DNA from: Isoetes taiwanensis
Lineage: Eukaryota > Streptophyta > Lycopodiopsida > Isoetales > Isoetaceae
Length of the DNA stretch: 64,000 nt
Reading direction: 5' to 3'
Assembly: GCA_021234155.1 (NCBI GenBank)
Contig: JAJEKV010000053.1
Location: 6,277,424-6,341,423 of the forward strand
In this document: positions 3,007-58,799 of the stretch, piece by piece
Numbering within the stretch: position 1 is the stretch's first letter
Layout of the letters: each line of letters opens with the position of its first letter
Position numbers and translations under genes: made by a program
The notes under the pieces: generated by a model
What the model was told of the DNA's origin: nothing
Databases searched by the model: none
The model's input: only the letters and a program-made list of their open reading frames with translations

Positions 3007-3246
3007 TTGAAGTTTGCTAGTCAAGATGAAATTTTATGAAGACACGCACACATCATCTCCACCACATTATCAATCAACCTCGACCGTCCGACGAGGTGCT
3101 ATCCATTACACACACATACTCAGTAATGGTACCCAAATATTGTTGGGCATAAGTTAAACCTGTAGACGAAAATATCTATCTCGGGACCCTTTCATAAATC
3201 CATGAACAGAAACCATGTCCCATTGCCAACAGATGAGTTTTGAGAC
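3007..3246. other. Normal-complexity interruption between two pyrimidine tracts
   Basis: About 240 bp of mixed-sequence DNA with AC-rich stretches. It separates the two pyrimidine tracts and contains no recognisable gene or TIR. Confidence 0.6.
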
Positions 3247-4675
3247 CACACCCTTCCTTCCGCTGTCTTTGCTCCATCCCACGTTTCTTTATTCCCCATC
3301 ATTCTCTTACGCCTTTCTTCTTTTCCCCTTTTTCCTTATTCCCATTTCTTTCCCAGGCCCGCCTCTTTTCCCCCTTCTTTTTAACTCTTTCTCCTTCCAT
3401 TCCTTTCTTTCTTTTCCGCTTTTTTTCCTTTTCCTTTTTTAATGGACTTTTTCCTTCCTTTTCAAATTTTTCCCCTTCTTCCTAATTTTTCTATGTGCCC
3501 TTTTTTTCCTTTTTCCCTTTCCTCTTCCTTTTCATTTTCTTCCTTTTCCTTTCCTTTTCCCATGCCTTTTTGCCTTTTTTCCATATTTTCATGTGCCCTT
3601 TTCTTCCTTTCTCCCAATCTCTCCTCTTTTATCCCATGTTCTCCGCTTACATTTTCTCCCTTTTACCCTTTTTATTTCTTTCCCTCCTCCTCCCTCCATT
3701 CCATTTTCCTTCCTTTTATCCTTTCTTACCCTCTTCCCTTTTTCCTGCGGTTTTTTTCCCATTTCCCGCCTCTTCCTTCTCCCTTTTCTTTTTTTTCCTT
3801 TCCATTTTCCCGCGACCTTTTTTCCATTCCTTTTTTTTCCCACTTTTTTTTTTACGGTCCCATTTCCTCCTTCTTACTCCTCTTCCTTTTCCCTTTTCTC
3901 TTTTCCCTTATCTCTCTTTTTCTTTTTTTTTCTTTTTTCATTTCCATGCTCATTTTCCCTTGCTTTCTTTTCCTTTCCTCACTTTTCTATTCTTCCATTT
4001 TTCTCTCTATGCCTTCCTTCCTCTCCTCCCTTTTCTCGCTACTTTTTCCTTCCTTTTTCCTCCCTTGTCTCCTTTTCCTTTTTCTTGCCTTCCTTTTCAT
4101 CCCTTCCTTTCCATGTGTCATTTTTCCTTCCTTCTTTCCTTCCTTTCCATTTCTATTTCCATTTTTATTTTTAACACCTTCCATCCTTTCCCACCTTTCA
4201 CGGCTCCCTCCTTTCCCACCCTCTTCCCCTTCCATTTTCCATTCCATCTCTCTTTCCTTCCCATGCCCTTTTCCTTTTTTCCCAAATCTCTTTCCTTTTT
4301 CATAAATTTTTCCCATGTTCTTCGCCCTTCTTTCCATTTTCCTCTCTCTGTCAGGTTTTTCCTTCCCTTCGCCTCCTTTGCTTTTTCCTTTCCCTTTTAT
4401 TCCCCATGTCTTTTCTTCATCTCCACCATTTGTTTTTCCCTTTTCCCTTCCCTTTTCCTCCTTTCCTCACCCTTCACCTTTTTTCGTTGTCTTTCCTTCC
4501 TTCCTCCTCCCCTTTCTTTTACCTATTTTATCCTTCCCATACCATTTTCCCTTTCCTCACTCTTTTCCTCCCTTTTTCCCATAAACATTTTCCTTCCTTC
4601 CCCTTCCCCCTTCCCCTTCCTGCGGCCTTTATCCTTCCATTTTCCCCTGATCCTCCTCCTTCTTCCTTCTTCTTC
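3247..4675 (+). repeat. Polypyrimidine tract 2
   Basis: About 1.4 kb of nearly continuous C/T sequence with the same word content as tract 1, interrupted mainly by short CATG or CCATG words (for example TTTCCATGCCCTTTTCC) and single A or G bases. It ends abruptly at TTCTTCAAGATC. Long frames through it are composition artefacts. Confidence 0.9.
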
Positions 4676-4939
4676 AAGATCAAAGCTGCGACCATTCCAC
4701 AGCAGGAAATGCGGGCGATAAACTTTGACTGGCGTAACCTGATGATCTAAAACCATCCAAATTCAGGGTTTCATTCATGATACTTACGCTTATAACATTA
4801 TAATCTTATATTATAAAAGTTTTAGAAGCGATAGTTCAAATCAAACCCTAATTTAGATAGTTAGACGCCCGATTGCATTTGAAGGCCGAGATTTATCGTG
4901 ACAACTTCCCACCACCATGATTGGCTGCGCTCGATCTCT
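4676..4939. other. Spacer between pyrimidine and purine tracts
   Basis: About 265 bp of ordinary sequence with an AT-rich middle (4790-4860). It lies at the switch point where purine/pyrimidine strand bias reverses. No gene, TIR or repeat was seen. Confidence 0.6.
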
Positions 4940-6298
4940 TAAGAGGAAAGCGGAAAATGGCGTAGCGCAAAAGTGAGAGGCAAAAAGGCACGGGCAAAAA
5001 AGGGAAAGACTGAAGGAAAAGGAAAGGGAAAAAGAGTACCTAAAAGGGAAAGAAAAGAAAGGGAGAAAAGAAGGAAAAAAGACACTATGAAAAGGAAAAA
5101 GGGGGAAAGGAGACTTGAGAAGGAAAAGGAAAGGGAAAAGAGCACCAAAAGGAAAGAAAAGAAAGGGAGAAAGGAAGGAAAAAGATTATGAAAAGGAAAA
5201 AGGGTGAGGACAAATAAGGAAAGAAAAGGGAAAGGAGGAAAAGGAAGAAAAAAAGGGGCAACGTAAAAAAATGGAATGGAAAAAAGTGTGAAAATGGAAA
5301 GGAAAAAAGAGAAGGAAAAAAAGGGTGGAAAAGAAAGAGGAAAAGGGGTATGGAAAAAGAGAAAAGGATGAAAAAAAGAAGGAAAAGGAAAAGGAAATGG
5401 AGGCTAAAAGGGAAAGTGGGGAAAGAAAAAAGAACACTGGAATAAGGAGGGAAAATGGAAAAGAGGAAGGAAAAAGGGCAACTAAAAACCTGAAGAGGGA
5501 AAGGTGAGGAAAGGGTAAAAATAAAGGGAAAAAGAGCATGAGGAAAGGGAAAAGAAAAAAAGAAAAAAGGGGAATAGGACGGGAAAAGGGGAAAGGGTAA
5601 GGAAAGGCGAAGAAAAGGCAAGTAAAAAAGTGAAAAAAAGGGAATGGAAAAAAATACATGGGAAAAAAGGGAAAAGGAAAAAGGGAAAGGAAAGGGAAAG
5701 GGAAAGGGAAAGGGAAAGGAAAGGGAAAGGAAAAGGAAAGGGAAAAGAGAAAAGGAAAGGGGAAGGAAAGAGGAAAAGGCACCTGAAAAAAATGGAAAGG
5801 GTGGGGAAAATGATGAAAAAAAGAAGGAAAAGGAAAAGTAAAAAGGAGGCGGAAAGGGGGGGAAGGAAAGGAAAAAAGGCATGAGAAAAAAAGAAAGAAG
5901 AAAATGGGAAAAAAAAGAGACATGAGATAAAGAAGAAGAGGGTGAGGGAGAGGAAGAAAACATAAAAAAAGGCGGGAAAAGGGAATGCAAAACGGCATGA
6001 GAAAGTTTGGAAGGGAAAAGAGAAAAGCAAAAGGAATGGGAAAAGGAAAGGGAAAAAAGATTATGAGAAAATGGGAAGGGTGGAGAAAGGTGAAAAGGGA
6101 AGGAAAAACCGCAAAAAAGGGGAAAGGGAAAGGAAAAAAATGAGAAGGAGAAAAGGAAGAAAAGAGGAGGGAGAAGAGGGTAAAAAAAAAGAGAGAGGGA
6201 GAAAAGTAAAATGTGCAGGAAAATAAGAAAAGGGAAAAAAAGAAAGTGTGTAAGAAAAATGAGGAAAAAGGATATGCGTGATAGAGCAAAAGGGAAGA
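4940..6298 (+). repeat. Polypurine tract, opposite strand bias to the preceding tracts
   Basis: About 1.35 kb made almost entirely of A and G: GGAAAAGG, AAAGGGAAA and AAAATGAGGAAAA words with scattered ATG, GCA and GTG interruptions. Its reverse complement has the same vocabulary as the preceding pyrimidine tracts, so the block resembles two arms of a very large imperfect inverted repeat with a 265-bp spacer. Encoded K/E/R/G runs are not proteins. Confidence 0.9.
5694..5714 (+). other. G-quadruplex motif (GGGAAA repeats)
   Basis: Four GGG runs separated by AAA occur in unbroken register, flanked by further GGAAA and GGGAAA words. This is a textbook G3N3 quadruplex pattern inside the purine tract. 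Folding is inferred. Confidence 0.65.
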
Positions 6299-7984
6299 TT
6301 TATCAAATGCACAAAAACCTTATAGCCTAGCAATGATGGACTTGGTTTCTATTATATTAGATGTATAAAAATGAGTCCGAAATTCAATAGGTTTTCCACC
6401 ATTAAATGCTCTTAACATTTACCCAAAGAACGCCGGGCAACCATTACTAGTATAAGATAAGATGTTGCATGGTCACTTTTGGCATTGGCAATTTGTAGAA
6501 ATTTGGCATTTTGGGACATTTGCTAACAGCTCAAGCCTATTTTCTTATTTTGACGCTTATGTTACCGAGATGAACAATAGTAGTGCCAAAGAAACACGAG
6601 TAGTGGGATTATTTACTGTGTCGAGCATTCATCTTCAACTTCATCTTCTTCGGCCCTTCGTGGAAGGTACAGAAAAAGAGCTAGAAATAACCCCGTTGAA
6701 GCTTCCATATCGCCATCGCGGAAAGTTGTTGGTGCAATAAGTGTCGGGAGTTGCCACGCTCTTTATCATGTGCGATAAACAACACGCATAACTATATGGT
6801 ATGTGGGGCTTAAATAGGCCCCAACAAAAGTTTATCGGTAGGAATGCCAACGGAACAACGGTAAGAAAATGAGGTATGCTACATATATACCCCTCTAGGC
6901 ATTTAAACTAATTAGTTGACATGTGCATTTAGTTATTTTAAATGTTTGAATATGTACAATCATTATGTCGTGAACAAATAGTGGATGCCTATTTTTACAC
7001 ATATGACTAACCTAACGTCAGAAAGGTTAACACAATTCAACCACAAACTTCTAATGAGGAGCATACTCGTTTGCGCTATAGAGTGTGTTGAATTGCTTTT
7101 ATGTACATTTTAATATCTTATTTATTGTGTTGTTATTCCAATTGTATAATGTAATAGAAATTGTACAATGTGATGGATTTATATTTGTATAATGCATATG
7201 GTGTTCATATAATTGTTTCATAATATATCAAGTGTATGATCTTTAAATTACCACCTAACATAAAATAGCAACCGACATCTATATGTTCAGTCCCTCGTGA
7301 TGAATCATTGGATGAAGTTCAAACATCAAGTTCAAAGAATACTTTGTTTTGTGCGATGCTGGATACATGAAAACACCACAAATTATTTTCCAGCAGTTCA
7401 ACACCCTCGAAATGAGAACAATGGTGACAAGGTTGAATTCTACACAACGAGGCAACAACCCCATTGTTTCCAAATGCACGGTATCTCGCCTTTGCTGCGA
7501 TGTTTGTTAATTTTGAACCTCCCAACATAAAGCCGGCTGGAGCAACAATAGTGTTTCGAAGTTTTTCGTGTATGTACATATGCTCTTATAGATTTTTGTT
7601 TTTACAATGTTGCTACTAACAATATTAAAATATGAGACATGTACTCTAGTTTGCTAGACAAAATACTACCGTAAGGGCATTGCCTTCCAAAGTCAAGAAG
7701 AGAGGCAAGAGAATTGTTAAGCAGCATTAGGCTAGAATACACCAGTATACATGCATGCTGAATGATTGCATACTATTGATAGAACGCATTGGCGCGGGAA
7801 CCAATCATGCCCGAAGTGAAATGAGCCACTGTGATGAGGAAGGAAGAAGGTCAAAAGTGGCAAGGAAAACATTGGCGCCCATATGCCTATAATCCCCCCC
7901 TTTTACGCTATATGTTTCGATCTCCTTCCATTGCCTTTTATGGATTACCATGCAAAAATCAGAGCATAGATGGAAAATGAGGAT
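6299..7984. other. No clear gene; AT-rich DNA upstream of CACTA transposase 1
   Basis: AT-rich sequence. Short open frames near 6462-6740 and 7297-7530 show no recognisable motif. The part after about 7270 may hold upstream exons or leader of the CACTA transposase that becomes recognisable at about 7990, but no domain supports this. Confidence 0.4.
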
Positions 7985-10540
7985 GCCCGCACAGATGGAG
8001 AGTCTTGGAAGAATGTCAAGAAAAGTGGCCACAATTTAAAAACGTGAGCCCCGCAACATTAGGCTTGGGCTAGGCTTGATGGAATATGTCCATGGGGAAC
8101 TATGTCATCATCACATAGCTGTGATGGCCGAAGTTGTTGTAAACTACAATATTCCACCATGGATGGCTATCAAACCCGGTCATATCATGTTGACATTGAT
8201 TGTTCCGTGTATTATGTTATGGTCATATCTTGCTGTATGAACATGTAAACAAAGTGGAAAAAATGTTTCTTTAAGGAAAATACCAAGTAAAAAATATGGA
8301 TGTTTACATGGAACCTTTGGTAGAGGAACTAGAAATATTGTGGAAGGGGATTCACATGTATGACATTGCAAGAGAGCCACATGATTTCACACTACATGGG
8401 ATGCTATGTTTCACAATTCATGATTATCCGTGCTTTTCTGTGGGATCGCAAGTATATCACTACAAAATTATATAAGCTAAAAATCTAGTTGCTTGTAAAC
8501 CATGATCCTAAAAATCAAGTGCTTACTTTGTGATGTAACAGTGTCTACGTGACAAGTGGGAGCATATGGATGTCCCTCATGCGGAACTAGCCTAACATCA
8601 TACGCATCCAAACATCTCAAGAAGCAAATTTTACATTGGCCACAAAATATCTCCTGCCTGGCACCATGCACGCATGCGAGGTGACACCCCCACCAAAGCG
8701 ATGGACAACTAGGGATTGGCTCCATGCATGGAAAGATGCAAATCCAAATTTGGATTACTTGGCTAATATTGAGAAGGCACAGCACACTCCCCCTTGGTAT
8801 GAAACGCTTATCTATATTTTATAGATTGGAGCACCGGGTAGACTTGAGGTCGACACTTGTTTTGATCCAATGCATATATTAAAAAATATTGCACATTCTT
8901 TATGGAAGCATTTAACCGGGTGAGTGGGAGATATTAGGAGCCCGAGAAGACCTTTAAAGAAAGAAACATAAAAGAGAATATTGGCCAATTGAGAGGGTCG
9001 GAAGACTCAAATGGAAAAGGGTAAAGTTTGGGTGTTAGAGAAACAAATGCTTTGCCACAAAGGCATAGGAGAATACAAAATATTCGCAGACAATCGACCG
9101 ACATGGTGCTTTCTACAAAAAAGCATTTACAAAAGATGAAAAACTCGGGCCGCCTCAAGACACATGACCGCATAAGTTTTCGAGGTATTTTATCATGAGT
9201 TTTGTTGCATGACTATTGAAAATATTTTCATGTATTAAACCATTGTTTGTTGTGGATGTAGCATGTGCTTCCTTTGTGCCATTGGAAGCTATCCGACACC
9301 AGCTATAAGGAATATTATATATCGCTTAGGCAAATTTGTGAGATGGGTGTCTTTGAAGGAAATTCGATATCCGACATTCCAAAGATGGAGGAGGAGGCCA
9401 TTTTACTATTATGTGATATTGAGAAAGAGTTTCCTACGAGCTTCTTAGATCTACAAGTATTATATTGTCCTTTCCTTAAATCTTTCTCACTATGCTTCTT
9501 TTTCTTATATTATGTATAGATTTGATGATATTAATGCAATGATATTATTGGCATAGGTGCACCTATTAATTCATATTCCAAATGAGATCAAATTAGCGTG
9601 TCCCGCCCCTCGACGATGGATGTTCTTTCTCGAAATATATATGAAAGTGCTCAAGGGGTTTGTCCGCCAAATGGCTAGGCCGTAGGGTGTATAGCGTAGG
9701 GCCATCTCATACAAGAAACACTTTATTTCCTCGAATGATGTGACGCATTGCATGCAATCCGATGGCCTTAAAATGTGGAGGAAAAGAGCCCATGAGATTA
9801 TAGCACGTAAGTTCTACAAGGCAAAGGGTGGAAAGGAATCTAAAATGATGAGATGTTTCGCCATAAATACATTTGTCTTGAATAACACAACGAAGTCCGC
9901 AATCTTTGCAGACATGTATGAAATTGCAAAGGAGAAGCACGAAGAAATAGCTCACATATGGTTCAATAATTGAAGAATGCACCTTGCCGCTATTACCAAT
10001 GAGCAATGATTGGTTATTAGCTCGCATGGATGAAGCAAGAGATGGTGGACAAACTGTTCCGATGATGATTATGAGCTTGCCATTGGATGCAATAGAAAGG
10101 TATGTAATTTAAATGTTTTTATACAATAAACTATATAATTCACTAAAATGCTTTCATATTAGGGCGATTTCATACATCCATGTGGGCATATGGGCAACAC
10201 TTGAGATTAGTAAGGTTGATAAATGGAGAATCACCTTTGACCTCGAATCATGGCACAATTTGAACAAAGGAGTCAAGCAAGCAAGAGGGATCAGAACCCC
10301 ATTATATTATGTTGGAACCATATCGATATCATTGAGTTAAACTATCGAACCTCGTAAATGTATTGAAAGCACAAAGGTTCAAGGTTGTGTACAGAGGTCT
10401 GGAAAAATAATTAGACACATGCTTCGATTTGTAGAGACCGATTCCACAAAAGTGCTACCCGACATGGACGCAGCCATTTGTTTTCCCAAATCGTTGGAGC
10501 AAGTCTTTTTCCATCCAAATCAATTACAACAATGATTGGT
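7985..10540 (+). pseudogene. CACTA (En/Spm) transposase 1: TNP2, DUF4218 and DUF4216 remnants
   Basis: Decayed TNP2-type transposase, recognised from plant CACTA motifs in order. DGESWKN is at about 7993, then PRNIRLGL; NIPPWMAIKPGHIMLTLIVP follows near 8150-8205. Next come PLVEELEILW with HDYPCF near 8310-8440, and CFDPMHILKNIAHSLW near 8851. DUF4218 follows: IEKEFPTSFLDLQ at about 9418-9456, then, after a likely GT-AG intron (9457-9556), VHLLIHIPNEIKLACPAPRRWMF and a KVLKGFVRQMARP stretch. A DUF4216-like tail (DTDSTKV/LPDMDAAICFPKS type) lies at 10,090-10,530. Stops and frameshifts break it in many places, for example after MARP at about 9682. The family's role is cutting and pasting CACTA elements by binding subterminal repeats. 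Identification is confident; exon boundaries are approximate. Confidence 0.85.
9457..9556 (+). other. Probable GT-AG intron inside transposase 1
   Basis: GTATTATATTG opens and TTGGCATAG closes a T-rich 100-bp segment. Removing it joins FPTSFLDLQ to VHLLIHIPNE, restoring the continuous DUF4218 motif order seen in intact CACTA proteins. Splicing is inferred from this continuity. Confidence 0.65.
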
Positions 10541-19538: not shown

Positions 19539-22036
19539 TAACCCGCCGCCCGATTCGGCCTAATGCTAACCTTTGACCTAGACTTTCTCCAAAAATTCAA
19601 AAATTGGGCCGTAGGCCGAGATGAATTAGGATCCGGCAAAAAATCAGAATTTATTTTCGCAGGCAATGCATTAATTGCGAATTTTTTCATGTGTTGCCAT
19701 CGAAAAGATGACTTCTAATCGCCATTATCGAGGAGGACAGTCCAAACTCCGCTCCGATTTATGCGCTTCTCGCCGCAGCCGCCAATGCCTAATTGCAATG
19801 ACCAGGACTCGTTTCAAAACGTAAAACCTTCTAGAGCCCGCAACTCGGGCCGTGGTTTACGCCGCTTTCTGAGGCCCTCTCCTGTCGATTCGCCGACCTT
19901 TCCAGACGCATGGTCTTTGAAGTGGAGTTGGGGGTGTTGACGGAGGAGGACCTAAAATCTCCTCCCGAGGTCGCTGCCCAAATTTCTCTCCCTAAGGCCC
20001 TCGGGAAGAACCTCCCCCTCCATCATCTGTAATGGACTCTATTTCGGGAACTCCGCGGGCCAAGCCACTCCTCGCCCCCAAAGTAGAAACCTTGACTCCA
20101 TCAACACTCGCCGAATCGTCTAGGACATTGCGATAACCAAGTTGGACGTGCTTAAGAGCAAAAAACGTAACTTTGCTCATTTCAAAATGAACCTCCTTCT
20201 AGAGCCCGGCAACAAGGCCGATGTGGTTTGCGATTCGGAGGCCCGCGCCGTAAGATTCGCCGACTTTCGCCGCCAGCCATGTCTTGAAGTTTTTGGGGTG
20301 TTGACGCCCCGAGTCCTAACACTAAAATCCTCCTAAGCCGCTTTGCCTCGTCCTCTCCCAAGGCCCCCGGGGAAGGATCCGCAACCTCCCTCTAACCGAA
20401 CCTTTTGATTTGCTCGCCAATGGACGTAATCGGAGATGAATTGATCGGGATTAAGTTCCTCAGGCTTAAGAAGGATCGCCCCCAAAACGTAAAACCCTTC
20501 TGAAGCCCGGCAAACTCCGGCCTGGCTTCTTGCGTGATTTGAGGCTTTTTCTTTGTCAGATTCAAATGTAGGCCGACCTTTGCGCCCGGGTCTTGAAGTG
20601 GAGTTGGGGGTGTTGACGTGAGCCGGACCCTAAAATCTCCCGAGGTCGCTTTTGCTTAAATTTCCTCTCCCTCAAGGCCCCCGATGGACGGGCCACCTCC
20701 CTCCGAACAAGGGACCGACTCGCCAATGGACTCAGAACGCCGACATTGCCCTGGGGACCAAGTTCCGCGGGCCGTAAGACCACCAACTCCAAGAAGCGCC
20801 AAAGTAGCTCACTTCCATCACACTCAGAGTCAATTGGCCTAGGATGTGCATGGATACCGGCTGTGGAGGGCGGAGTGTTTTTCTTTTTCAAAACCGACCG
20901 CGGTAACTTGCTCCCTAGGGTAATTTCGCCATTCCCGACGATTTGGTGGTCTATTTGCCATTCCCGAGCATCCCTGCGTCCGAAACGACAAAAATGCTAT
21001 GGTTTCTACAAGGCCGACATCGATGCCCCGCGGTTTGACAAGTTCTCCCGGACCGATCTGAATCTTTTTGACCTTCCCAAGAGGGGCCCCTGAACGGAGG
21101 ATCCAACTGGCCGGATAGGGGAACCGCCCGGGAGGGTGGTCATTAGCGCGGTACCGGGAGCCGCCAGAAGGGTCGCCTTCGAACTTTTTTTGATCCCGCC
21201 CCCCGGGTCCGGACTCTCCTCTTGTGAGGGATCCCCGCAAGGTCCTGGCCTCGTTTGACTTGGGAAGGGTGCCACTCGGTTGTTCCCGCAACGGCTGCCC
21301 CGACCGTTCTAATGCTAACCCTTTGACCTAGACCTTCTCCGAAAATTCAAAATTGGGCCGTGCCGAGATGAATTAGGGATCCCACGACGGCAAAAAACCG
21401 GAATTTATTTTCGCAATGCATTAATTGCGTAATTTACGAATGTCTTGCCATCGGCAAAGCCCCGACTTCTACTTGCCACATCGGGAGGAGGGAAAGGCCC
21501 AAACTCCGCCCGCCGGGCCTCTTGTTCGTATTCTGGCGCCGCTTCTGGCCAGGTCCCAAGTGCAATTTGTAGACCAGACTCGGCCCCAAAAACGCAAAAC
21601 CCTTCTAGAGCCCGGCAACCCACGTGGTTTACGCCGCGGGAGGCCCTCTCCTTGTCGATTCTACGGACTTGGCGCCGCGGTCTTGAAGTGGAGTTGGGGT
21701 GTTGACGCCGACTAAGGTGGACCCTAAAATCCCTCCTGAGGTCGCTTGCCCCAAATTTCTCTCCCCAAGGCCCCGGGGACGGACGGGCGACCTCCCTCTC
21801 CTCCCCGGGGACCGACTGACTCGCCAATGGACTCGAACGCCGACATTGCCTCGGGGACCAAGTTCCGCGGGCCGTAAGACCACCCAACTCCAAGAAGCCA
21901 AAGTAGCTCACTTCCATCACACTCGTAGTCAATTGGCCTAGGATGTGCATGCGGGATACTGTCGTGGAGGGCGTGAGTGTTTCCTTCTTTCGCAAAACCG
22001 ACCGTGTAACTTGCTCCCTAGGGTAATTTCGCCATT
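19539..22036 (+). repeat. Left part of the 1.1-kb satellite: degenerate and truncated units
   Basis: Satellite blocks recur in the same order as in the main array but are diverged and shortened. A first unit starts with TAATGCTAACCTTTGACC at 19,561 and breaks off near 20,145. A second partial runs about 20,158-20,430. A third resumes at AACGTAAAACCCTTC (about 20,475) and runs through to 21,308. A fourth (21,309-22,036) is close to consensus and is cut at the TAATTTCGCCATT block by the inserted transposon. Rising similarity toward the array interior is typical of satellite edges. No conserved reading frame is present. Confidence 0.88.
22033..22036 (+). other. Target-site duplication, left copy (CATT)
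   Basis: The satellite consensus reads TTTCGCCATTCCTGACG without interruption. Here CATT is followed by foreign sequence, and CATT recurs at 31,588-31,591 where the monomer resumes with CCTGACG. This is a 4-bp duplication of the target. Confidence 0.8.
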
Positions 22037-22111
22037 AACAACGTCTTAAATTAAACGCACTTATTTTAAAAGTGCATTTAAAAGATTCCTTAGAAAAAAC
22101 TGAATGAAGTC
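22037..22111 (+). repeat. Left terminal inverted repeat
   Basis: It begins AACAACGTCTTAAATTAAAC. Comparison with the complement of 31,515-31,587 shows AACARCGT, AAATT, GCACT(T/A)ATTTT, a TGCA(T/C)TT core and AAGATTCC in the same order, with a few small gaps. Confidence 0.82.
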
Positions 22112-22844
22112 AGAAAAAGGCTCTTTTTTTCAAGACTTTAAATTGTTAATGCATGGCAGTATAAATTTGAGCACGTTTTAGCCTATTTTAATCATTGCAC
22201 GAAATTATTGATGAATAGAAGCTTAAAATTATGCATTTTTAGTATGCTTTTTCTATCTACATGATCACTCCAATAAAGAACATCTTACGACGTAGCAACT
22301 TTTACAAGAATTTCGTTAATGCATGAAGTTGCTAAAGAAAAATAGCATTGACAAAGGATCTTAAAGCGCATTCATCTCTATTAAAACTTCATTTGTAGAT
22401 TTACAAGCATGCAATCGAATTATTCTTCTTTAAGATTACTTAATTTGTTCACTTATAACCAAATAATCGAAGTGCTAGTCTCTTTCAAATAGTTTTTTAG
22501 GATTAAATGGTTGTTCTTGTCCCTTTTTTTTTAAAGAGTAGGATTCAAACAATAACCAATAAAAATTATCAATTTTAAGCTTCTACTAGTTGAAAGATGA
22601 CTGACAAAAAACATAAGGTTTAAAAATTATTCAACTAAAAGCACAAGACAATTCTTAAAACAAAAAGATCATAAGCATAATACTAAAGGAAAAAAACAAT
22701 CACAAAATAAATGACAAATTAATTCACAACAATAGTTCTTAAACTTCATATCTCAAGCAAATGACAAAATAGTAAAACGACTACCAAAGAAATAGAAATT
22801 TATAAGTTCTTAAACTTCGTGTCTCAAGCAAATATTAAACTACT
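22112..22844. other. AT-rich subterminal region of the transposon
   Basis: AT-rich, with no gene. A 30-bp segment around CTTAAACTTC(A/G)T(A/G)TCTCAAGCAAAT is present twice (about 22,739-22,764 and 22,809-22,835). This may include the 3' UTR of the minus-strand gene. Confidence 0.5.
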
Positions 22845-23139
22845 TCAGTAATCAATGGGTTCTTCTTCATCGGGGTTCCATTCTTTCTTTCTCCTCTTCA
22901 AGACCAATGTTTACTAAAGGAATTGTTGATGAAGCCTTAGGAGTTTCTTCAGAATTACAAAGAGCGTGATCAAGCTCGCAAAATCAACTCGCCATCGCCT
23001 ACCACTAGGTGGTGGCTGAATTTCGTGAGAAAGTTTCGCTAGATTTCCAATCAAGCTTTTGTCGCCTAACTCCCCGATTTTCATCAGGCAAGGACTCACA
23101 AGAACTTATTCTTGTTTTATAAAACTAACATTATCCGGA

Positions 23140-23835
23140 TCAATATCAATGGAGATAACATTTCTTCCTTTCTTAAGAGCACAAACCGCAGCTTGTCCCC
23201 GATCCAAAATGCATCCAAAGACCAACCACCGGTCTTGAAAACCAACTAATAAGCTTTAGAAATTAACTTCGGGCTTTTGATAATGTGACACTATTTGTCC
23301 CTCCTCTCGAGGATCTTTCAACTTTGAAGCATGTACCGGATAACAAAACACGTTGTTTGGTGGTTGAGTTTCATCCGCTGTGTTGTAATGCCGCATACCC
23401 CTTTACCATCAACACTATAATATCCAATATGGAGATGCTCAAACTTACTAACTAGACGAAGCTCCACCACCATTGCCTTTAACATTTGTTTTTATCCCGC
23501 AAGAACTTGAAATCGTAAACGTGAACCGTGATATTTCAAAATGAAGAAAAGTTTAAACTTACCACACACAACCCTCAAAACCAAAGATTGCATATTGTAG
23601 ACAATGGCTTTATCACGTATATTGTTTGAACATCCGAATGAAATAAAATTATTTCTCCAATAGGAGGAGGTGGTGACCTCTTTAAATCCTTCCGTAAATG
23701 ACTCCACCTCCTTCCAAGTAAAAGCCTTGTCATCAAAGCGATCGGCCCTTTTATCTTGAAGCCATAAGGTATATCAGCTATGCACAATGTGAAGTTACGT
23801 GGTTGAATAACTTGTTTCAAGAACCCAGCCTCCAA
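23140..23835 (-). other. Amino-methyltransferase catalytic region (motifs IV and I)
   Basis: The frame starting at 23,835 gives NFTLCIADIPYGF, matching the (D/N)PPY-type catalytic loop with the variant DIPY. About 180 codons later, switching between frames, come a FxGSGQAAVCALKKG-type glycine loop and a GRNVISIDIDP stretch, where the acidic residue after ISI would bind AdoMet ribose. The intervening SDVQTIYVI and FFILKYHGSRL segments fit beta strands of the core. The C-terminal glycine loop is characteristic of PF01555-type enzymes. Confidence 0.65.
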
Positions 23836-24660
23836 CTACGACTTTATATAATGCATCTTGATTGAAAAGATAGAAACTCTCAAGATCATTAGTCAAAAAC
23901 CTAGAGCGGCTTGACCTTCCTCGCTTGTGCTTTAAGCTTTTGCCTTTCTTCTTTACACCTTCTTACAAGGTTTAAAAATCCAAAGCAGTAATCCACTAGA
24001 CTTTTCTACGTAAAGAAGTTATTCTTTAATACTTAAATTGATATATTATGAAGTTCAAAAAAAAACATTGTAGTATAGAACTTATCTATGAAATTTGAAG
24101 TACTAACCCATTTGTCGGGTTAGGGGCATATTCTTTTATCAAAGCATCCGTGGTTGTCGGGCCGATAATTTGCTCTCATAGCCTTCCCAAGCATCCAGAT
24201 TAAGTGCTTTCAAAGAGCTCTAACCGGCAAGTTACAATATCTTTTTGTCTGTATGTAACAATAAAATATTTTAGAACATCTCTACCGATTAATCACAAAA
24301 ACAAACACCTTATCGCTTTGTTTCATTTGCCATTTCTTCTAAAGTAAACTCCTTAGCCACACGACTCTCTCAGAGAAGATGGACTAGTAGCTCTTTGTCC
24401 TTAATTCCTTGAAGAGAAATCCAAGGAACAATAGTCATCTCCTTCACCTTAGCAGGTTTAGATAATTTCTTGCTTGCCTTAGGCGCTTTTTCCACTACAG
24501 ATTTTGTCTTTAGCTGGTTGTCTTGAAACATGGAAAAAAAATTTTCTTGAAGTTCCCATATCTGAAAAAGCAAACTATTAGTGCCAGAAGTTGCCATTTG
24601 TTTAACTACAATAAGAAAACACTGGATGGCAACATCCACAAAACTATGCACTTATTTCTA

Positions 24661-24992
24661 AGATTTTATGACAAGTAACGTAACTAAGTGCACGCAGTAT
24701 GAATTCATACACTAGTTTTTTAACACAAGCAATAAACATGCCAACTTCAGTTTTGAATGCATACCTTTTGTAAGATTTTTTGACAAGTAAGTACTGTAAA
24801 TGAGTGCACGCAGTATGAATTCATACACTAGCTTTTTAACACAAGCAATAAACATGCCAACTTGAGTTTAAATGCGCACCTTTTGTAAGATTTTTGACAA
24901 CTAGTACTATAAATGAGTGCACGCAGTATGAATTCATACTAGCTTTTAAACACAAACACTAAACATGCCATCTTGAGTTTAGATGCAGACCT
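24661..24992 (+). repeat. Three tandem copies of a ~115-bp unit
   Basis: Copies start at AGATTTT (24,661), 24,773 and 24,888. Each holds AGTGCACGCAGTATGAATTC, then TTAACACAAGCAATAAACATG and CTTTTGTAAG. Each contains the perfect palindrome GTATGAATTCATAC (24,697-24,710; 24,813-24,826; 24,926-24,939). They lie within the minus-strand gene between its ParB-like and middle regions, so they are probably intronic. Confidence 0.88.
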
Positions 24993-25194
24993 TTCCACTT
25001 CTGAAGGCTAGTTGAAAATAGTTGTCAAACTTTTAAAGCACCCGGTGGGTGATGATCACTATCATACCGAGGCAACATTCGCTACACAAGTTTCCCCGAG
25101 CTCAAGGAGTGTACCATTCTTTCTAAAGTCTTCACCGTGAGGTCTGCTCAAAGTTTATAAATTCTCGATGCATAAAGCGATCCGATCAATGAAA

Positions 25195-25575
25195 CTCATT
25201 TGAGGCGTGACTCATTATCAACATTATGAGAAATGGCTAGAACTTTTGCTTCTTCATCCGTTAGACCAACATAAACCTTAGCTTCTACCACTTTCCAAGC
25301 GGTGATTTTTGTCGCCTTCTTTCATTAGTTCCTTTCTTGCTTTGTAACCGCGGTGTTCCACCCAAGACATAATACCGATAGTACTCAAAGTCAGCCTTAT
25401 TGTACTCTTTTTAGAGATGTACATTGATTTGGGTCAACCATAACAATCATAGGAGTGACTATCGCTTCTTGGTTAGCCCTCATTCTATCTTTTAGAATGT
25501 CAACGCAGAGGCATATAACTTCCTAACTTGCAGAGGCCTTTGCCCGTAAGCCGCCTTTGGGAGGTCTTTGATTGT
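25195..25575 (-). other. ParB/sulfiredoxin-like region
   Basis: Minus-strand codons give TPMIVMVDPNQC (entry strand of the fold), then LGGTPRLQ-type residues where ParB proteins have the GxHR box, then VYVGLTDEEAKVLAISHNVDNESRLK. The ...LTDEEA..LA..HN... stretch resembles the Arg/His helix region of ParB-like proteins. Frame shifts occur at about 25,310 and 25,410. The fold is inferred from motif order only. Confidence 0.5.
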
Positions 25576-26002
25576 AGCTGTAGAGAGCCTCATCAGATCA
25601 ACAACACGCTTGGTTGCATTGACATAATTCAACAAACTTTGTGCTCCTATCAACTTCCTTACTTTTAATCACACATCCAGAGCTCTTTTTTCTCCTTGGG
25701 CACTTCGATCCCTCAATGCGCTTGTACCTTCCTCTTCCTTTGCACAACAATTTCTTTGACATGTTTTTTTTGTTTTTAAGCAAGTCCTTATCCAAAGGTT
25801 TCTATCTAATTCTCCACCATCATCTCCGCCCTCTTCCTCTTGACCGCTTGCTTCTTCGCCTTCTTCCCCACTCAATTGTTCTTTCTCCACTTTTCACTCC
25901 TCTCGATTCATCATCTGGGTAGACTTTACCTACCTTAAGTATCACCGCTGAATTACAAGCTTTAACATTTTGGAGGACATCAATAATATCCTCGTTGCAC
26001 AA

Positions 26003-27230
26003 AGTTATCGGGCTTGAACATTAAAGTAAACAAACTAAATTGACAAGATTTTACAAAAGTTTTAACACCGCACGGATGTACTCCTTCAAATCAGCAGAAA
26101 ACACAATGACATCTTCATGAAAACACTATTTAAAACAATTACGCCTCTTTACCGCTTAATTATCCAAATACCACTTGGTTTGCGTAATCATTCCTCTTAA
26201 TCGAAAAATTCTTCCGTGGACATAAAAGTCATCCTTCTTTAAAGTTTCTCTCGCCAGAGATGGTCGTTGTCCAAAGAAATAAGTCGTATGGATGCTTGTC
26301 TTGAAATCCTCTAGAAAGAAACCATCGGTGATTTAACATTTTGTATCCTTTCAAATTTTCTCCGTATGATTTTAAACTTCATTTTAGGCGCTTTTATCGC
26401 ACAACAAAGCTTTTGTTATGCAAACTAATTTTGCGTAAGATATTTGATTCAACAAAACCAGCCAAGTGTTAAAATCAATCATCAAGTCCTTTTGCCGAAA
26501 AAAATGTGGAAAAGCTACTAAAAGTGCAAAGAAAACCGGGCCGATTTCATCACTTTTTCATAATTTCCTTGTTGTTCAGACGCCAAAATATCTACTCTTA
26601 TTAAGTACAAAGATGTGCCAAATTAACAGTGAATTGGCTTATTCTACTACCGATTTTGCTATTTCTACAACAGATTTTTATGATTCTACAGCCGATTTTT
26701 CAACTTCTCATCTGATTTTTCAATTGTTCAGTCCGTTGTCGATTTCCTGGAAAATATTGCTGATGTTTGTAATCTAGTCTACAGCTGCAAAAGAACGGCC
26801 AATTTTGATTGTTTTAATTACGCTTTTGGAGATTTTGCTGTTCTACATGAAGTCTGGCACAGAACAATTTTTAAGTTGCAAAATCGATTTCTTTGTCGCT
26901 TCGGATTTCTTTTTCAAAAAAATCGATTTCTCGCTGCACGTTTCGTTTCTAACGCCGATTCGCTGCTTTTAACCTGGCGCTTGAAATCGAATCCTCGCTT
27001 TAACCGGGCCGATTTGGCCTGCTGCCGATTCGGCCGATTCTCACGAGGACGCTTGATTCTCGGCCGTTGTTGGTTTCCTTTAACGCCTGGCCTTAAACCA
27101 AGAGTTTAATTGCAAGGAAAAGGGACGGTTGTTGTTGCACAACGTCCAACATGTTAGGAAATTTAAAAAGATAGAATGTTTTTAGCAATTGAGATGTTAT
27201 TTTAAGGATGGCACTTTGAGAAAGAAAAGG
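26003..27230. other. Central part of the transposon: no clear gene
   Basis: A 103-codon plus-strand frame at 26,466-26,777 contains repeated YSTTDFAISTTDFYDSTADF-like wording, which comes from a DNA-level repeat of (C/A)CCGATTTT(T/G) (26,650-27,010) and is probably not a protein. The divergent promoters of the two genes should lie between about 26.0 and 28.9 kb. Confidence 0.4.
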
Positions 27231-27234
27231 AACC

Positions 27235-27952
27235 GTATGAATTCATACCATACAACATTTTGCCTTCTAATCTAAGACAGAGAAACTTCTAGAAATGCAC
27301 TTTTTGGGATTAATTAATCCCGCTTTTACTCTCTCTCTTGGAAAGAGACTCAGATGAATTTATACCGGGCCATCTACGCCTTAAGGGTGTCAATGCCTTA
27401 AAGTTGTGAGCAGAATATTCAATAACACATGATGGTATAAATTAATACCACCACTAAGATAAATTCATACCACAAACTTATTCTTGAAAACCTCAAAGGT
27501 ACAAGTATAAATTTAAAAAGGAATATTCTGAAGAAAAAATGAAAAACGCAAAGAACATTAAGAGTAAATAGGTCGGCGCGACGTGGCTCACTCCGGTCAT
27601 GTCCCAGATATCGGCTTTTTATAGGTCCACTTCTATGGTGAAGAAGACTATTCAATGAGATGCCGTTTTGGTGAAATTTTATGATGTAAGAAATGAGAGA
27701 GAGTTAAAGTATTTTGGTATGTTTTTTCATCTCGATTTTAATTGTGCATTGCCATAGAGTTGCGTGATACGGGAAGTTGTTTACAATTGTTGAAATTGCT
27801 ATTTGTATTTGGGATTGGTATGAATTCATACCGCTTTGCTCTACTTAACCCTTCTAGGATCAGGGTTTGAGTGTAGCATTGGTATAAATTTATACCGCCG
27901 CTTGTACTTGTTCGTCGGGCCTAAAACAAAGGATCTGGTAGAAATTCAAACC
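27235..27952. repeat. Cluster of GGTATGAATTCATACC-type palindromes
   Basis: Palindromic or near-palindromic words occur at 27,235-27,248 (GTATGAATTCATAC), 27,353-27,366 (GATGAATTTATACC), 27,434-27,449 (GGTATAAATTAATACC), 27,459-27,472 (GATAAATTCATACC), 27,817-27,832 (GGTATGAATTCATACC), 27,881-27,896 (GGTATAAATTTATACC) and 27,937-27,952 (GGTAGAAATTCAAACC). They are unevenly spaced in otherwise different sequence and share their core with the three copies at 24.7-24.9 kb. They may be binding sites for an element-encoded dimeric protein. Confidence 0.75.
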
Positions 27953-27992
27953 AATGCTTTTTAAGGAGATGGAGACATCACATTCTACTAGA

Positions 27993-28325
27993 TTTCCACC
28001 TCCAATGCGGTGTCACCCCCTCCACAAAATTGCACATTCCACCTCCAATGCAGATAACACTGATACACACAACCGCCAAAATTCCGCCTCCCATGCAAAT
28101 CACTCCTGCATAATAGCTTTTGTTACCCTCAATGGAATTCACTCCACCACGTTGTATTAAAATTCCACCCCCATGCAATTTACTCCGTGACGAGACAATT
28201 TTTGCTTGTAAAGGCACACTTGACAAAACAAAGTATTCCAAGCAATTCTTCTTTGCCACTTCTACCGCTTTGGCACACTACATCGATGCAATGTCTTTTT
28301 TGCCACCACCAATGCAAGTTACTCC
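27993..28325 (+). repeat. Spaced CCACCTCCAATGCA-type motif, five copies
   Basis: Copies are at 27,993 (TTTCCACCTCCAATGCGG), 28,036 (ATTCCACCTCCAATGCAG), 28,081 (ATTCCGCCTCCCATGCAAAT), 28,162 (ATTCCACCCCCATGCAATTT) and 28,301 (TGCCACCACCAATGCAAGTT). Three are followed by (C/T)ACTCC. They sit between the palindrome cluster and the transposase gene. A regulatory or binding-site role is inferred from repetition only. Confidence 0.65.
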
Positions 28326-28985
28326 AGACAATCCAACATGAATCCACCCCCCTCAGATTCCACTCGATTGATACAATTGACATCTTAGAATCCCTTGAGA
28401 AGGAACCCTCAAAATGAAGCAGATGTTGCCACAAATTCCTTTTGTAATCCTAGTCGGGCCGAGCAACGCCATCCTTTAATGGCTTTCCAGTGTGCTTCAG
28501 ACTTTCGAGTCCTTCCAAGGTCGCTTTTTCCGAGGGTGGACGCCTCAACAAGGTAATCAACCTACACAATTTGAAGTACCGTAGCGGGGCCATTTCAGAT
28601 GAAGATGATTTAGAAGAGGATTCGTAACATCGTGGCAAACCGCTTGAATTCAAAGAACCTAGGAGCAACAACTTTAAGAGAAATCAGACAAAAGGTTTAC
28701 TCACTACCTGAGACGCCACGACTCATGGATGAGGCAAACTTAAGGAAGTCGCGACATCCAACATTGTTGTAAGAATAATTGTATTTCAAAGATAAGTTTG
28801 AGAGAGTTGAGGTTACTACGCGGATCACTATAAAGGTAAATGACTTTTAAGGACCAAAGAGGTTATCCGCATACAATATAAGGCCCGACAGAGGAGACAA
28901 GTTTTTTTATTATCAGAAGGAATTGAAGTTTGTCGACAAAGATTCAAAAATCATCCATTGTTTAGGAAGGTGAGACTAACAAGGT
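28326..28985 (+). other. Presumed upstream region or first exons of the transposase gene
   Basis: No motif is recognised. The region includes short Ser-rich minus-strand frames and plus-strand segments with basic coding potential (ETRLTRLKKRLDKNPL near 28,970-29,010) that run into the transposase gene. Confidence 0.35.
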
Positions 28986-30960
28986 TGAAAAAAAGGCTCG
29001 ATAAGAATCCACTAATTAATGATTACCGCCAATCCGAAATGTTGTGACTACTCATGCTCTAGAATGTGTAGCTTGATGGAAAACTTCTTCAAAGAATCTT
29101 GTGAAAAGTTGCCCAATAGTCCAATGTACCATTTGAATGATAATTTCACAAAACGTGAAGTCTACAACAACTACAAAGAAACATGCCTAGAATCCGTGTG
29201 CGCCAAGTTTCTTATTCACATTTCACGCTTTTGTGGAAGAAAGAATTCGCCGTGTAAGGATTCCAAGAAAGCATCAGATGTCGGGCTTGTCCACACATAC
29301 CGAAGTTGAAGGCTAAGAGGCAAAGTGCAAAAACTTTACATGTTAAAAGTAAGATAACAAGAATCCTTTTTATTTTTGTATTCTCCTAGAAGTTTGTCCG
29401 ACAACTATTTTATGTGTAGATGCACTCAAGGAGCAACTTAATAAATAATGTGGAGCGGATACAATTGTTAGAAAGAAGAAAATTGTCCAAGCACGTAAAA
29501 AGTCGCTAGAGAAGCCCCTTCAAGATCTTCAGCTTGTAATAGATGGCATGGATCAAAAGAAAACGACGATACTTCACTTTGTGAATGTGCCTAAGGATCT
29601 TCCAGAGCAAGACTTCATTCACCTACATGTTGTTGGCGCTAATGATTTTTTTCTCGTAAGCTTCGTTGTAAAGCTTTTCTCAATTATCCAAATCTTCAAA
29701 GTTGATCCAAATCTTGTAGTTACAATTTTGCACAAGATTCTTTGTAGCTTGAAAATTTACCGCCAAGTGTTATACCTTCAACCGACAACACTACAAGAGA
29801 AAATAAAATCAAGTGGTCTTTGCTTATTGTGCCATGTTGGTCGAGAAACAAATCTTTAAGAAAGTAAAGATTGGTTTTCTACTAGTTGGGCACACGCATC
29901 CACCAAATTGATCGATGTTCAGCAGATTCTCCAAACGCCTTGCTAGAAAAAGGCGTTTACTTTGCCAACAATGGTTGAAGTTATCAAAGATTCTTATAAT
30001 CCCTCAACCGTAAGTTGAGCTAATCGAGGAGACTTTTGATTTTAGAGAGTTTGTATTTCGCAAAGATGGAGATGGTTGTGCTATTGAGCCGTTAAGGAAC
30101 ATCACATTTCAGCACCATGCAAAGTTCTTCTTACAAAATAGCAAGACCTTATTACAAGGGAAGAAATATGCTACATCACGAGAATGGTTACCAAAGGATG
30201 GTCTACGCTTATTCGCTATATTCCCGATCCTAATACTATGATGTTGGCAAGAGCAAATGCCCCTCAAGAATCTATTTGAGATAACCAAGAGTCACAAGGA
30301 AAAAAGAGCATTTGATCCAAAAAAATCCTTAGATGCATTTGAAAGAAGTATTAAGCTTTGTTATAATCACTTTGATGAAGCAGCTTGTTTGTGGTGGAGT
30401 TCTTTCTTTAGTAAGCAAGGCAACCTTTCCAAAAGATGGCACTAGGGCCAACAACAATTGCATTCCAAGTGGGCCGTGAGAAAAGATCTCATATGCTTGC
30501 AACCGATGATGTAGCAATAGACTAAGTTGAACAAGTTCTCACCAGACGAGGAAGGTCGTGGTAATCGCATACTGTGCCCCTAGAAGAACAAAGACAACAA
30601 GAAGCTAGAGTATCTGGAAATACTTCAGAAATACAAAAGGGAATGCTAGTTGCTGTTTTGGCAGATGATGATGAGGAAGGCCGAATGTTTTGGTTGGCAA
30701 AAGTCCTTGATGTTGTTCGCGAGGAGGGATTACCCACACAATTAAAGGTGCATTGGATGAGAACTACATCAAAAAATGCATTTGATGGACTGTGATGACT
30801 TTGAGATGTTGAACTAATAGAGGCAAAAAGAGCAAGAAGCACAAAGAAGAACGGATATGCTTCATCTCTCAGAAGTAAAAATCCTTGCATATGACTTTAC
30901 CCTGAAAGCCAACAACAGACTGCGCGAGACTACTAAAAAGCTACTAAAATCTGCTTGTGG
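28985..30960 (+). pseudogene. DDE-like transposase (DGMDQ/GHTH family) with C-terminal SH3/Tudor-like segment
   Basis: Plus-strand pieces across three frames give, in order: a segment ending WKKEFAV then RIPRKHQMS (about 29,215-29,280); KPLQDLQLVIDGMDQKKTTILHF with D at about 29,542; HLHVVGA; NLVVTILHKIL; LYLQ followed by DNTTRENK (29,784-29,807); FAYCAMLVEKQIFKKVKIGFLLVGHTH (GHTH at 29,888-29,899) and an ID pair (29,907-29,912). The DGMDQxKT / DNxxRENKN / GHTHxxID pattern is that of an abundant, poorly named eukaryotic transposon protein family (DUF7869-like); these acidic residues would form the metal site. Downstream come EWLPKDGLRLF and HFDEAACLWWSSFF, then KGMLVAVLADDDEE with FWLAKVLDV and LKVHWM (30,640-30,760), like an SH3/Tudor/BAH barrel. 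It ends with ILAYDFTLKANNRLR. Broken by frameshifts. Confidence 0.7.
30574..30795 (+). other. SH3/Tudor-like segment at the transposase C-terminus
   Basis: One clean 73-codon frame: GMLVAVLADDDEE, RMFWLAKVLDVV and LKVHWMRT. Alternating hydrophobic strands with FW(L/I)(A/G)KV and KVHW are typical of small chromatin-reader-like barrels. In the context of the upstream transposase motifs it is best read as that protein's C-terminal domain, perhaps steering insertion to modified chromatin. The ligand is unknown. Confidence 0.5.
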
Positions 30961-31514
30961 TCTAGGTGAGTCGTCAAAAAATGTTGACAATGTTGTCGAT
31001 GAGAAGATGACATTTTACTAGTGGATGCTGATGAGGAGGACCGCTCCAAAGACATCCACCTCCTCGATAGCGAGGCACTAGACACAAACAAAGGATAATA
31101 CCGACCACCTGTCAACTAACCGATGATGAGATAGATCCCGTGACTAGCAAAGAAAGTCAAATTATGTTAGATAACGCTTATTTTCAAGATATAGTTTATT
31201 CTTGATAATTGCAAAGTCGCATACATTTCATAATTAATATGTTTTGTGTAATCTTGTAGTGTCTCTTATAAATTTCTATTTAAAACTACTTTGTGCCACA
31301 CATCTTTACTTATAGATTTGAGATATTTTCATTTTACTACCATTAGAGTTAGGGTGCTTTTTATTTTTTTGTTCCATATTTAGTTTTACAATTTAGGTTA
31401 GGAACAAAAAAATATGCCTTCAAGTTTTTACACAAACCCAAAATAGGGTAAAAAATTTGTAAAATGTCTAAATTATCAATATTACCACAAAAAATAGCAA
31501 GAAATTTCTTGTTT
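30961..31514. other. AT-rich 3' region of the transposon
   Basis: Past about 31,140 the sequence is AT-rich and frame-free, consistent with a 3' UTR and subterminal region. No repeat was seen other than the TIR that follows. Confidence 0.5.
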
Positions 31515-31587
31515 TCGTGGGGAATCTTTGAATATTCCTTTGAAGTGCATTTCATCAAAATTAGTGCATTCAATTTTGAACGCTGTT
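31515..31587 (-). repeat. Right terminal inverted repeat
   Basis: Reverse complement begins AACAGCGTTCAAAATTGAAT and aligns with the left TIR: AACARCGT, AAATT, GCACTAATTTT, AAATGCACTT and AAAGATTCC. It carries a short insertion relative to the left copy (GGAATATTCA region). The plus strand ends ...GAACGCTGTT at 31,587. Confidence 0.82.
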
Positions 31588-31591
31588 CATT
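31588..31591 (+). other. Target-site duplication, right copy (CATT)
   Basis: CATT precedes CCTGACGATTTGG, where the interrupted satellite monomer resumes in phase. It matches 22,033-22,036. Confidence 0.8.
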
Positions 31592-58020: not shown

Positions 58021-58204
58021 ATTTATTTCTTTATTTATGTAAGTTTTCTAATTATTGAATGCCTTTATTTTTTTGCATGTACACTAATAACAAAATGCGT
58101 CGCTCTTGGAAATCGATTTTCGCAGCTCGAAGACATTCTAGGTAAGAATTTGAGTTTGAGTAGGAGAATAAAATTTTAATGTTTTATTTAGGTTAAAAAA
58201 AAAC

Positions 58205-58545: not shown

Positions 58546-58799
58546 TTTTTATTAATATATCAATAAATAGAAATCTTTACTGGATTGGACAAGGGCGGTG
58601 GTTTTTGAAAAAAATTGCATTATTGATTTTCGGGTTTCTAGTTAAGAATGTTGTTTTTAAAGATGTTAGGGATGTCAAAGAAACACCGATGTGGAGTGGT
58701 TAAGAGCAAGAAAAATTTAAATAGTTGGTTTTAAAAAAAAAAAAAAAATTAAAAGGGAAACTAACTCTTAAGAAAGTAGGTAAAGATTCATAATGAAGG

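Follow-up and report, generated by a model that had tools for sequence, protein, structure and literature searches.

Palindrome arrays in a Sola-like DNA transposon of Isoetes taiwanensis that carries a candidate ParB-like methyltransferase gene

Introduction

Do transposons place DNA modifications on their own copies in order to evade or control silencing by the host? The question is raised by a transposon with terminal inverted repeats (TIRs) in the vascular plant Isoetes taiwanensis, in which a gene for a putative DNA methyltransferase of bacterial type stands opposite a likely transposase gene. The element, which is Sola-like and 9,551 bp long, occupies positions 22037..31587 of the window, that is, of the whole stretch of 64,000 nucleotides analysed (contig JAJEKV010000053.1, positions 6,277,424 to 6,341,423); coordinates are those of the window unless given as element positions, and other copies in the genome carry L numbers. 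The first-pass annotation of this DNA, made from the sequence alone, had recognised a transposon with this pair of genes. Its interpretation is partly supported, and it missed the arrays of short palindromes that are the most unusual part of the element.

The palindromes provide a candidate target for the enzyme, with more than 12,000 exact copies in one genome, several family-specific versions and retention in gene-less elements. Since the candidate is abundant, family-specific and retained, the idea of self-marking becomes directly testable. Were the palindromes docking sites, they would let the element recognise its own kind, and they could also serve as short sites to which DNA methylation is directed in plants. 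The reading that we favour, and hold to be slightly on the probable side, is that the element belongs to a large and diverse group of cut-and-paste TIR transposons, some of them recently active, and that its ParB-like methyltransferase binds the palindromes and marks the element's own copies, somewhat like the anti-silencing VANC proteins of Arabidopsis.

Palindrome arrays in gene-bearing elements

The gene-bearing elements contain repeated exact palindromes of 14 bp, nearly all of which have GTAT...ATAC arms (GTAT-N6-ATAC). In the window copy, the palindrome GTATGAATTCATAC is found at 24697..24710, 24813..24826 and 24926..24939 and, between the genes, at 27235..27248 and 27818..27831. The region between the genes also harbors GTATAAATTTATAC (27882..27895), the imperfect palindrome GTATAAATTAATAC (27435..27448) and the exact palindrome GGATTAATTAATCC (27307-27320), the last of which is present once in each of L001-L005 as well. 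Four window-family copies contain GTATGAATTCATAC five times, L004 contains it twice and the deleted copy L005 once. Exact copies of GTATAAATTTATAC number 13-25 in each of L048-L051, L056 and L057, where 20 shuffles of the same elements give a mean of 0.45-0.9 for all 14-bp palindromes together; GTATTCCGGAATAC is present six or seven times in three elements, and GTGTATTCGAATACAC twice in L052. The 54 kb of the window outside the element contain ten 14-bp palindromes, none of them repeated.

The abundance extends to the whole genome (1,658,258,908 bases in 1,110 contigs). GTATAAATTTATAC occurs 12,556 times compared with 17 for its reversed control, and GTATTCCGGAATAC 3,720 times compared with 0. 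Palindrome places were cut on seven of the eight contigs listed, and all seven 6-kb pieces include a family terminus or a coding match; the piece from L058 includes the terminus only, 2.4 kb from the palindrome.

Across 18 elements, two of which (L006 and L007) lack any coding match, not one of 178 listed sites overlaps a coding match; six of these sites are GGATTAATTAATCC, one in each of six window-family copies. The sites lie either within introns of the methyltransferase gene or in the region that separates the two genes. Clusters between the divergent genes, which the window copy and most divergent families have, fit a function as operators, through which the ParB-like protein would regulate its own promoter and that of the transposase, with no role in marking. 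However, several clusters are intronic, L048 has one site just past a stop codon, and non-autonomous elements in which neither gene is functional also keep arrays, so that we consider a purely regulatory role distinctly improbable.

Arrays in non-autonomous copies

Five kinds of non-autonomous derivative each retain at least one palindrome. The first came to light when 20 pieces were selected solely by their right terminus, from 40 scored right ends of the L056 family (those listed next after the query itself), and read 2.7 kb inward. Nine of these hold a complete element, 2,190-2,275 bp long and bounded by exact target duplications; the sole coding trace found in the nine is part of the N-terminal exon of the methyltransferase gene, and each of them harbors 7-9 palindromes. 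In ten pieces the 2.7 kb include transposase coding sequence but no palindrome, which agrees with the layout of full elements; two of the ten, L065 and L067, have a common flank and may be one duplicated locus. L080, the remaining piece, has neither transposase coding sequence nor a palindrome.

The nine short elements align with L059 as a single family. The other kinds are the deletion copy L005, the copies L006 and L007, detected through their termini, and L062. L006 has only the end regions in common with the window family among the longest matches listed, and it contains five palindromes, two of which lie in a stretch that can be aligned to the arrays of L056, L057 and L059. The recurring content of the gene-less copies is two ends and an array, weakly so in L007.

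Retention of arrays in elements that lack most or all of both genes, together with their location outside coding sequence, would also be consistent with internal transposase sites or a transposition enhancer, in which the array aids assembly of the synaptic complex. Transposase sites are, however, usually terminal or subterminal, and in the 18 elements all listed palindromes fall outside the terminal repeats and stop short of the plus-strand transposase match. We regard a role in transposase binding as unlikely, while giving it some weight.

Conservation of the palindromes

The spacers of the arrays vary while the 14-bp core is exact, and families that differ in the core have the same GTAT...ATAC arms at comparable places. 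In an alignment of four window-family copies, none of 336 palindrome positions departs from the majority, compared with 1,107 of 37,446 positions elsewhere (Fisher P 0.005 at A/T sites and 0.12 at G/C sites). The ten short copies show fewer changes at A/T positions within palindromes (8/1,136) than outside (263/13,461; P 0.001). CpG sites outside the palindromes are approximately three times more changeable than other positions (0.087 and 0.080 compared with 0.024-0.034 and 0.020-0.029), which would fit methylation of cytosine in these elements by the host; base-calling errors at modified sites could add to the excess.

Arrays may also spread by tandem duplication and inverted repetition, with no selection for binding. 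Many sites are tandem or inverted, the central array of L056 is a large inverted repeat, and conservation at the base level is mixed within the 2.2-kb family. Against such spread stand the exact core amid differing spacers, the constant arms around different cores at comparable places, and the absence of any departure from the majority in the palindromes of the window family; we find it very improbable.

Some details of the arrays are recorded as seen. In L056 (oriented positions 4760-5084), the inverted repeat comprises eleven palindromes, and its spacers are, by eye, near reverse complements. L052 (oriented 2677-2898) contains palindromes with a centre two bases shorter (GTATTCGAATAC) and one that is shorter by one base, and L055, 84% identical overall to L052, has the 14-bp form. 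Helical phasing is not claimed because the periodicity curve is broad with its maximum off 10.5: for 145 pooled, non-independent spacings, R is 0.505 at a period of 10.5 and reaches its maximum of 0.519 at 11.0.

The gene pair and its products

The first-pass annotation described divergent transposase-like and ParB-like/methyltransferase genes. Both are present, divergent and, in the window copy, interrupted, and the domain matches come from longer frames in L001 and L003. Profile searches yield significant matches to two domains, namely DUF7869 on the plus strand (E 2.5e-54; Pfam, L003 copy) and N6_N4_Mtase on the minus strand (E 6.9e-18; Pfam, L001 copy), and none to Pfam ParB_N.

The minus-strand gene consists of five exons, which are probably spliced into one protein; the N-terminal, the ParB-like and both methyltransferase exons are interrupted in the window copy. 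The N-terminal exon (26069..26363, element 4033-4327) and the ParB-like exon (24982..25812, element 2946-3776), the label of which is weak, were located by tblastn with L003; frames homologous to the former have no Pfam match. The short middle exon (24313..24597, element 2277-2561; tblastn with L002) ends in a stretch that looks by eye like a helix-turn-helix, and its L055 frame has no Pfam match. The last two exons encode the methyltransferase, first the part with the ADIPYGF motif (23563..24006, element 1527-1970), then the SAM-binding half with DAFSGSGTT (22848..23495, element 812-1459), to which the N6_N4_Mtase match belongs. On the plus strand, the transposase gene comprises an N-terminal part (27969..29353, element 5933-7317) and a DUF7869 part (29419..31171, element 7383-9135), both interrupted.

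The methyltransferase matches pass the curated cut-off of the beta-class family with 65.8 and 70.7 bits compared with 26.7. The best matches among solved structures are MboIIA, CcrM and RsrI, which we take to be N6-adenine enzymes, and N4-cytosine enzymes appear lower in the same list. The DUF7869 protein is likely the transposase; in an alignment of three sequences only, its invariant residues include the acidic residues D41, D121, D160 and D163. Relatives outside the plant were sought with little return. None of the 24 and 497 pattern-matching stretches of viral contigs encodes a relative of the transposase domain or of the ParB-like exon. The 134 prokaryotic stretches gave one match, L085, which was rejected after its frames were read as what is presumably a GatD/GatE amidotransferase pair. 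Matches of the methyltransferase to phage proteins (630 records) are generic, as all fall below 60% identity and the ten listed are at 24-26%.

The gene pair is widespread in the genome. A first look gave 9,908 candidates for DUF7869 and 3,159 for the methyltransferase, of which 150 each were scored; the scored places form 30 pairs within 20 kb, divergent in all 30, with spacings of 5.4-6.7 kb in 22 and 7.6-18.7 kb in eight. DUF7869 was not found in 14 control genomes, those named being prokaryotes. Candidate ends of the L056 family number 1,179 on the left and 1,168 on the right, and the 40 scored on each side are 98-100% identical over 120 bp, so at least these copies spread recently.

The methyltransferase is under purifying selection between families. 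Its exons and the ParB-like exon are mostly saturated in synonymous divergence (dS) between families while the protein is conserved, with nonsynonymous divergence (dN) in the methyltransferase exons of 0.04-0.65. Among the printed pairs with estimable dS, dN/dS in the C-terminal half is 0.02 for L053-L055, 0.03 for L048-L056 and 0.04 for L048-L050; it is 0.04 in the N-terminal half for L048-L049, 0.06 in the ParB-like part for L053-L055 and 0.05-0.13 for the closer pair L048-L057. Values for the nearest pairs include 0.17 in the N-terminal half for L054-L055 and 0.13 in the ParB-like exon for L001-L003. These counts retain L050, in which the ParB-like part is inverted, and L049, with seven stops in its ParB-like match.

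The methyltransferase gene may instead be a passenger that was captured once and is unrelated to mobility. Cargo genes are common in DNA transposons, and TET/JBP genes move between transposon superfamilies (PMC12730594). However, the order of the two genes is divergent in every neighbouring pair, and dN/dS is 0.02-0.06 between divergent families where dS is estimable; we give the passenger account the lowest probability of those considered.

The two halves of the element may have partly separate histories. Several element pairs resemble each other much more in the transposase half than in the methyltransferase half, with a transposase dS of 0.13 for L048-L049 and 0.12 for L053-L055, and halves of very different divergence are seen in pairs among L048, L049, L053, L055 and L056. 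The nucleotide similarity of L048 to L056 and L049 steps up within the palindrome-rich stretch that separates the genes, from approximately 72% to 84-88%. Such a jump, along with divergence that differs by half, suggests that families exchanged element halves.

Proposed mechanism

In the mechanism that we propose, the DUF7869 transposase would cut at the AACA...TGTT ends and thereby give rise to the 4-bp duplications. The product of the divergent gene would combine a ParB-like protein with a beta-class N6-adenine/N4-cytosine DNA methyltransferase and, probably as a dimer, would bind the GTAT-N6-ATAC sites that lie in the introns of the gene encoding it and in the promoter region common to both genes. 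The bound enzyme would methylate the surrounding transposon DNA, and the mark would separate element copies from host DNA and keep them expressed or mobile. Non-autonomous copies that retain palindromes would be treated by the enzyme in trans. The mark may oppose silencing, license transposition or protect DNA.

The element makes two candidate binders, and on the best reading the ParB-like methyltransferase is favoured over the transposase. The sites lie in its introns and between the genes rather than near the ends, ParB-type proteins act at palindromes, and sites spread over the whole non-coding part would make sense for a methyltransferase that is directed by sequence. Binding of a protein at a two-fold symmetric site would explain why many exact copies are kept even in elements without working genes. 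A more specific version, to which we give somewhat less than even credence, is a self-recognition system in which the enzyme loads at parS-like clusters of GTAT-N6-ATAC and writes N6-methyladenine or N4-methylcytosine (6mA/4mC) on its own and non-autonomous copies. In this system recognition would diversify as the central bases (AAATTT, GAATTC, TCCGGA and a shortened TCGA) change in concert between constant GTAT arms.

Several findings weigh against binding and self-marking by the ParB-like methyltransferase. Concerning the sites, the genome-wide excess of GTATGAATTCATAC is modest (64 compared with 11 for its reversed control), the places examined being those in known copies, and avoidance of exons could in part reflect coding constraint. 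The nine short elements are one family and not nine independent cases, L059 and L062 were found through their palindromes, and L007 has a single exact palindrome. In the short copies, G/C positions change more within palindromes (11/190) than outside (174/6,110; P 0.03).

Concerning the protein, the ParB label is weak and draws on the motif GGTHSYKARKEL, on its published use for a protein of the brown alga Ectocarpus, and on matches that fall below threshold. Pfam ParB_N matches one place genome-wide (E 1.49), outside every fetched element, and no match is listed for the five members of the ParB-like alignment. The best match of the ParB-like part to DUF6551 is sub-threshold (E 0.0052). The GG-x-H region of sulfiredoxin aligns with GGTHSYKARKEL or GGNHSFKARRQL at a non-significant E of 1.6, and unrelated chains, for example DHFR-TS (E 0.0084), outscore sulfiredoxin; as proof of a ParB relationship both sub-threshold matches were rejected, and they are retained as hints only. 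Motif IV of the methyltransferase reads DIPYG in six, DLPYG in three, DLSYG in one and NIPYG in one of 11 sequences, and departs from the usual catalytic motif of beta-class enzymes, (D/N/S)PP(Y/F/W) in its DPPY form. Finally, dN/dS is not low between certain close copies, at 1.44 on very few changes in the C-terminal half for L054-L055 and 0.53 in the N-terminal half for L001-L003.

Ends, target duplications and the empty site

The boundaries of the element had been placed in the first-pass annotation by the splitting of one satellite monomer between two copies of CATT, and they prove exact. The target site duplication CATT is present at 22033..22036 and 31588..31591, the left junction reads ...TTTCGCCATT followed by AACAACGTCT and the right junction ...GAACGCTGTT followed by CATTCCTGACG, and the ends are common to other copies, which have 4-bp duplications of their own. 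Insertion into a satellite monomer is borne out by an empty site with a single CATT in 22 monomers that span the junction, mostly about 1.1 kb apart, among 24 matches to the joined flanks. The inverted repeats are real, with an alignment score of 34 compared with a maximum of 28 in 500 mononucleotide shuffles, and imperfect; they measure 48 bp on the left (22037..22084, plus strand) and 50 bp on the right (31538..31587, minus strand) rather than the 60-75 bp first estimated.

The search for further copies that had been suggested was productive. The left 164 bp have 41 matches in the genome (40 of 44 candidates scored), 36 of which begin at terminal base 1, and the right 197 bp have 27 (27 of 27 candidates scored), 21 of which begin at base 1. 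The first eight elements with both ends, the window copy included, are 9551, 9548, 9568, 9466, 9279, 4050, 2675 and 2786 bp long, and seven have exact 4-bp duplications, the exception being L004. In pieces cut around distant family members, both ends were found in six of ten, with the exact duplications TAAC, TAAC, CTTA, ATAT, GTTT and ATCC; no pair of ends was found in the other four. Together with L059, L062 and the nine short elements, 24 of 25 elements in which both ends are seen have exact 4-bp duplications, and these 24 are 71% A+T with no clear consensus.

The flanks of L001 and L004 present an unusual case. Over 200 bp, their left flanks differ almost only by short indels, though the elements are 17% different, and their right flanks have no real similarity; L004 is the sole element without a matching duplication. 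Single-base indels number 116 between the window copy and L001 and 15 between L001 and L003. This surplus weakens simple decay as the explanation of the interruptions in the window copy, some of which may be residual errors of long-read assembly.

Genomic surroundings

The satellite that surrounds the element extends over 20875-54805 with a period of approximately 1.1 kb. Its monomers differ by several indels per 116 bp, some of which may be assembly errors. Elsewhere in the window, 2330-6272 consists of a polypyrimidine stretch (approximately 2.3-4.6 kb) followed by a polypurine stretch (approximately 5.0-6.3 kb), with a GC skew of -0.66 in 2001-4000. A 125-bp tandem repeat is present at 58200-58560, and a 42-bp tandem repeat containing CGTCGTTGAACGACG at 62708-62790.

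Comparison with known systems

The 4-bp duplications separate the element from the CACTA (3 bp), hAT (8 bp), MULE (7-12 bp), Harbinger (3 bp) and Tc1 (2 bp) superfamilies, as the first-pass annotation had held. piggyBac and Kolobok are specific for TTAA, which is found in none of the 24 duplications. The lengths for MULE and Tc1 are also given in PMC10741241. In the same source, Sola elements are described as having 4-bp duplications, TIRs and lengths of 2-9 kb, some above 15 kb, and as present in a moss. The duplications, the TIRs of 48-50 bp and the length of 9,551 bp found here lie within the reported range. Sola2 elements of amoebozoa are reported with AT-rich (AWWT) target duplications (PMC3627910); this pattern is not seen here, where the duplications include CATT, GTAG, GGTG, CCCA and others.

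A poorly described superfamily, as first suggested, is not needed, because Sola1 as published has both the 4-bp duplication and the gene pair (PMC10741241, PMC12477816). In Sola1-1_Ec32 from Ectocarpus, a gene for a ParB-like protein with an N4C/N6A methyltransferase lies on the strand opposite the transposase, as it does in Isoetes, and the authors suggest that proteins of this type may act on the transposon that encodes them by binding and modifying it (PMC12477816). Sola1-1_Ec32 is 21.5 kb long and from a brown alga, whereas the Isoetes elements are 8.2-9.6 kb long and from a vascular plant, and the likeness is one of description. By duplication, ends, size and the published gene pair, the element would be placed as Sola-like. 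The excerpted text of PMC12477816 does not mention a palindrome array or a target sequence for Sola1-1_Ec32. DUF7869 is not mentioned in the Creative Commons-licensed PubMed Central literature searched. Among the matches listed from that literature, which does not cover subscription papers, none describes such elements with palindrome arrays or reports this group of elements from Isoetes. Chief among the findings that are new, as far as searched, are the palindrome arrays and the fact that non-autonomous copies keep them; the occurrence of the group in a vascular plant, its scale there and the purifying selection on the gene are new as well.

Three further systems provide a context for the proposed function. 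Bacterial ParB acts at clustered parS palindromes, the sequence of which differs from the sites here. The likeness lies in a ParB-like protein proposed to act at clustered perfect palindromes of similar length; the Isoetes protein, unlike ParB, has no significant ParB_N profile match and is joined to a DNA methyltransferase. DNA transposons of fungi that encode TET/JBP proteins also carry a DNA-modification enzyme, for which escape from silencing has been proposed (PMC12730594), though the enzyme is different and the elements belong to other superfamilies.

The closest working parallel is the VANC proteins of VANDAL elements in Arabidopsis, which are MuDR-type elements (PMC12730594). There, too, an element-encoded protein is paired with family-specific arrays of short motifs in non-coding parts (PMC5735166, PMC10398659), and binding of VANC21 to such arrays in non-coding DNA of the element that encodes it goes with a loss of silencing (PMC5735166). 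The VANC motif, YAGTATTAY, is non-palindromic and in one orientation, whereas the sites here are palindromes, and VANC leads to loss of methylation whereas the protein here is a predicted methyltransferase. The comparison covers the mode of working, in which a transposon would recognise its own copies through short motif arrays that its own protein binds.

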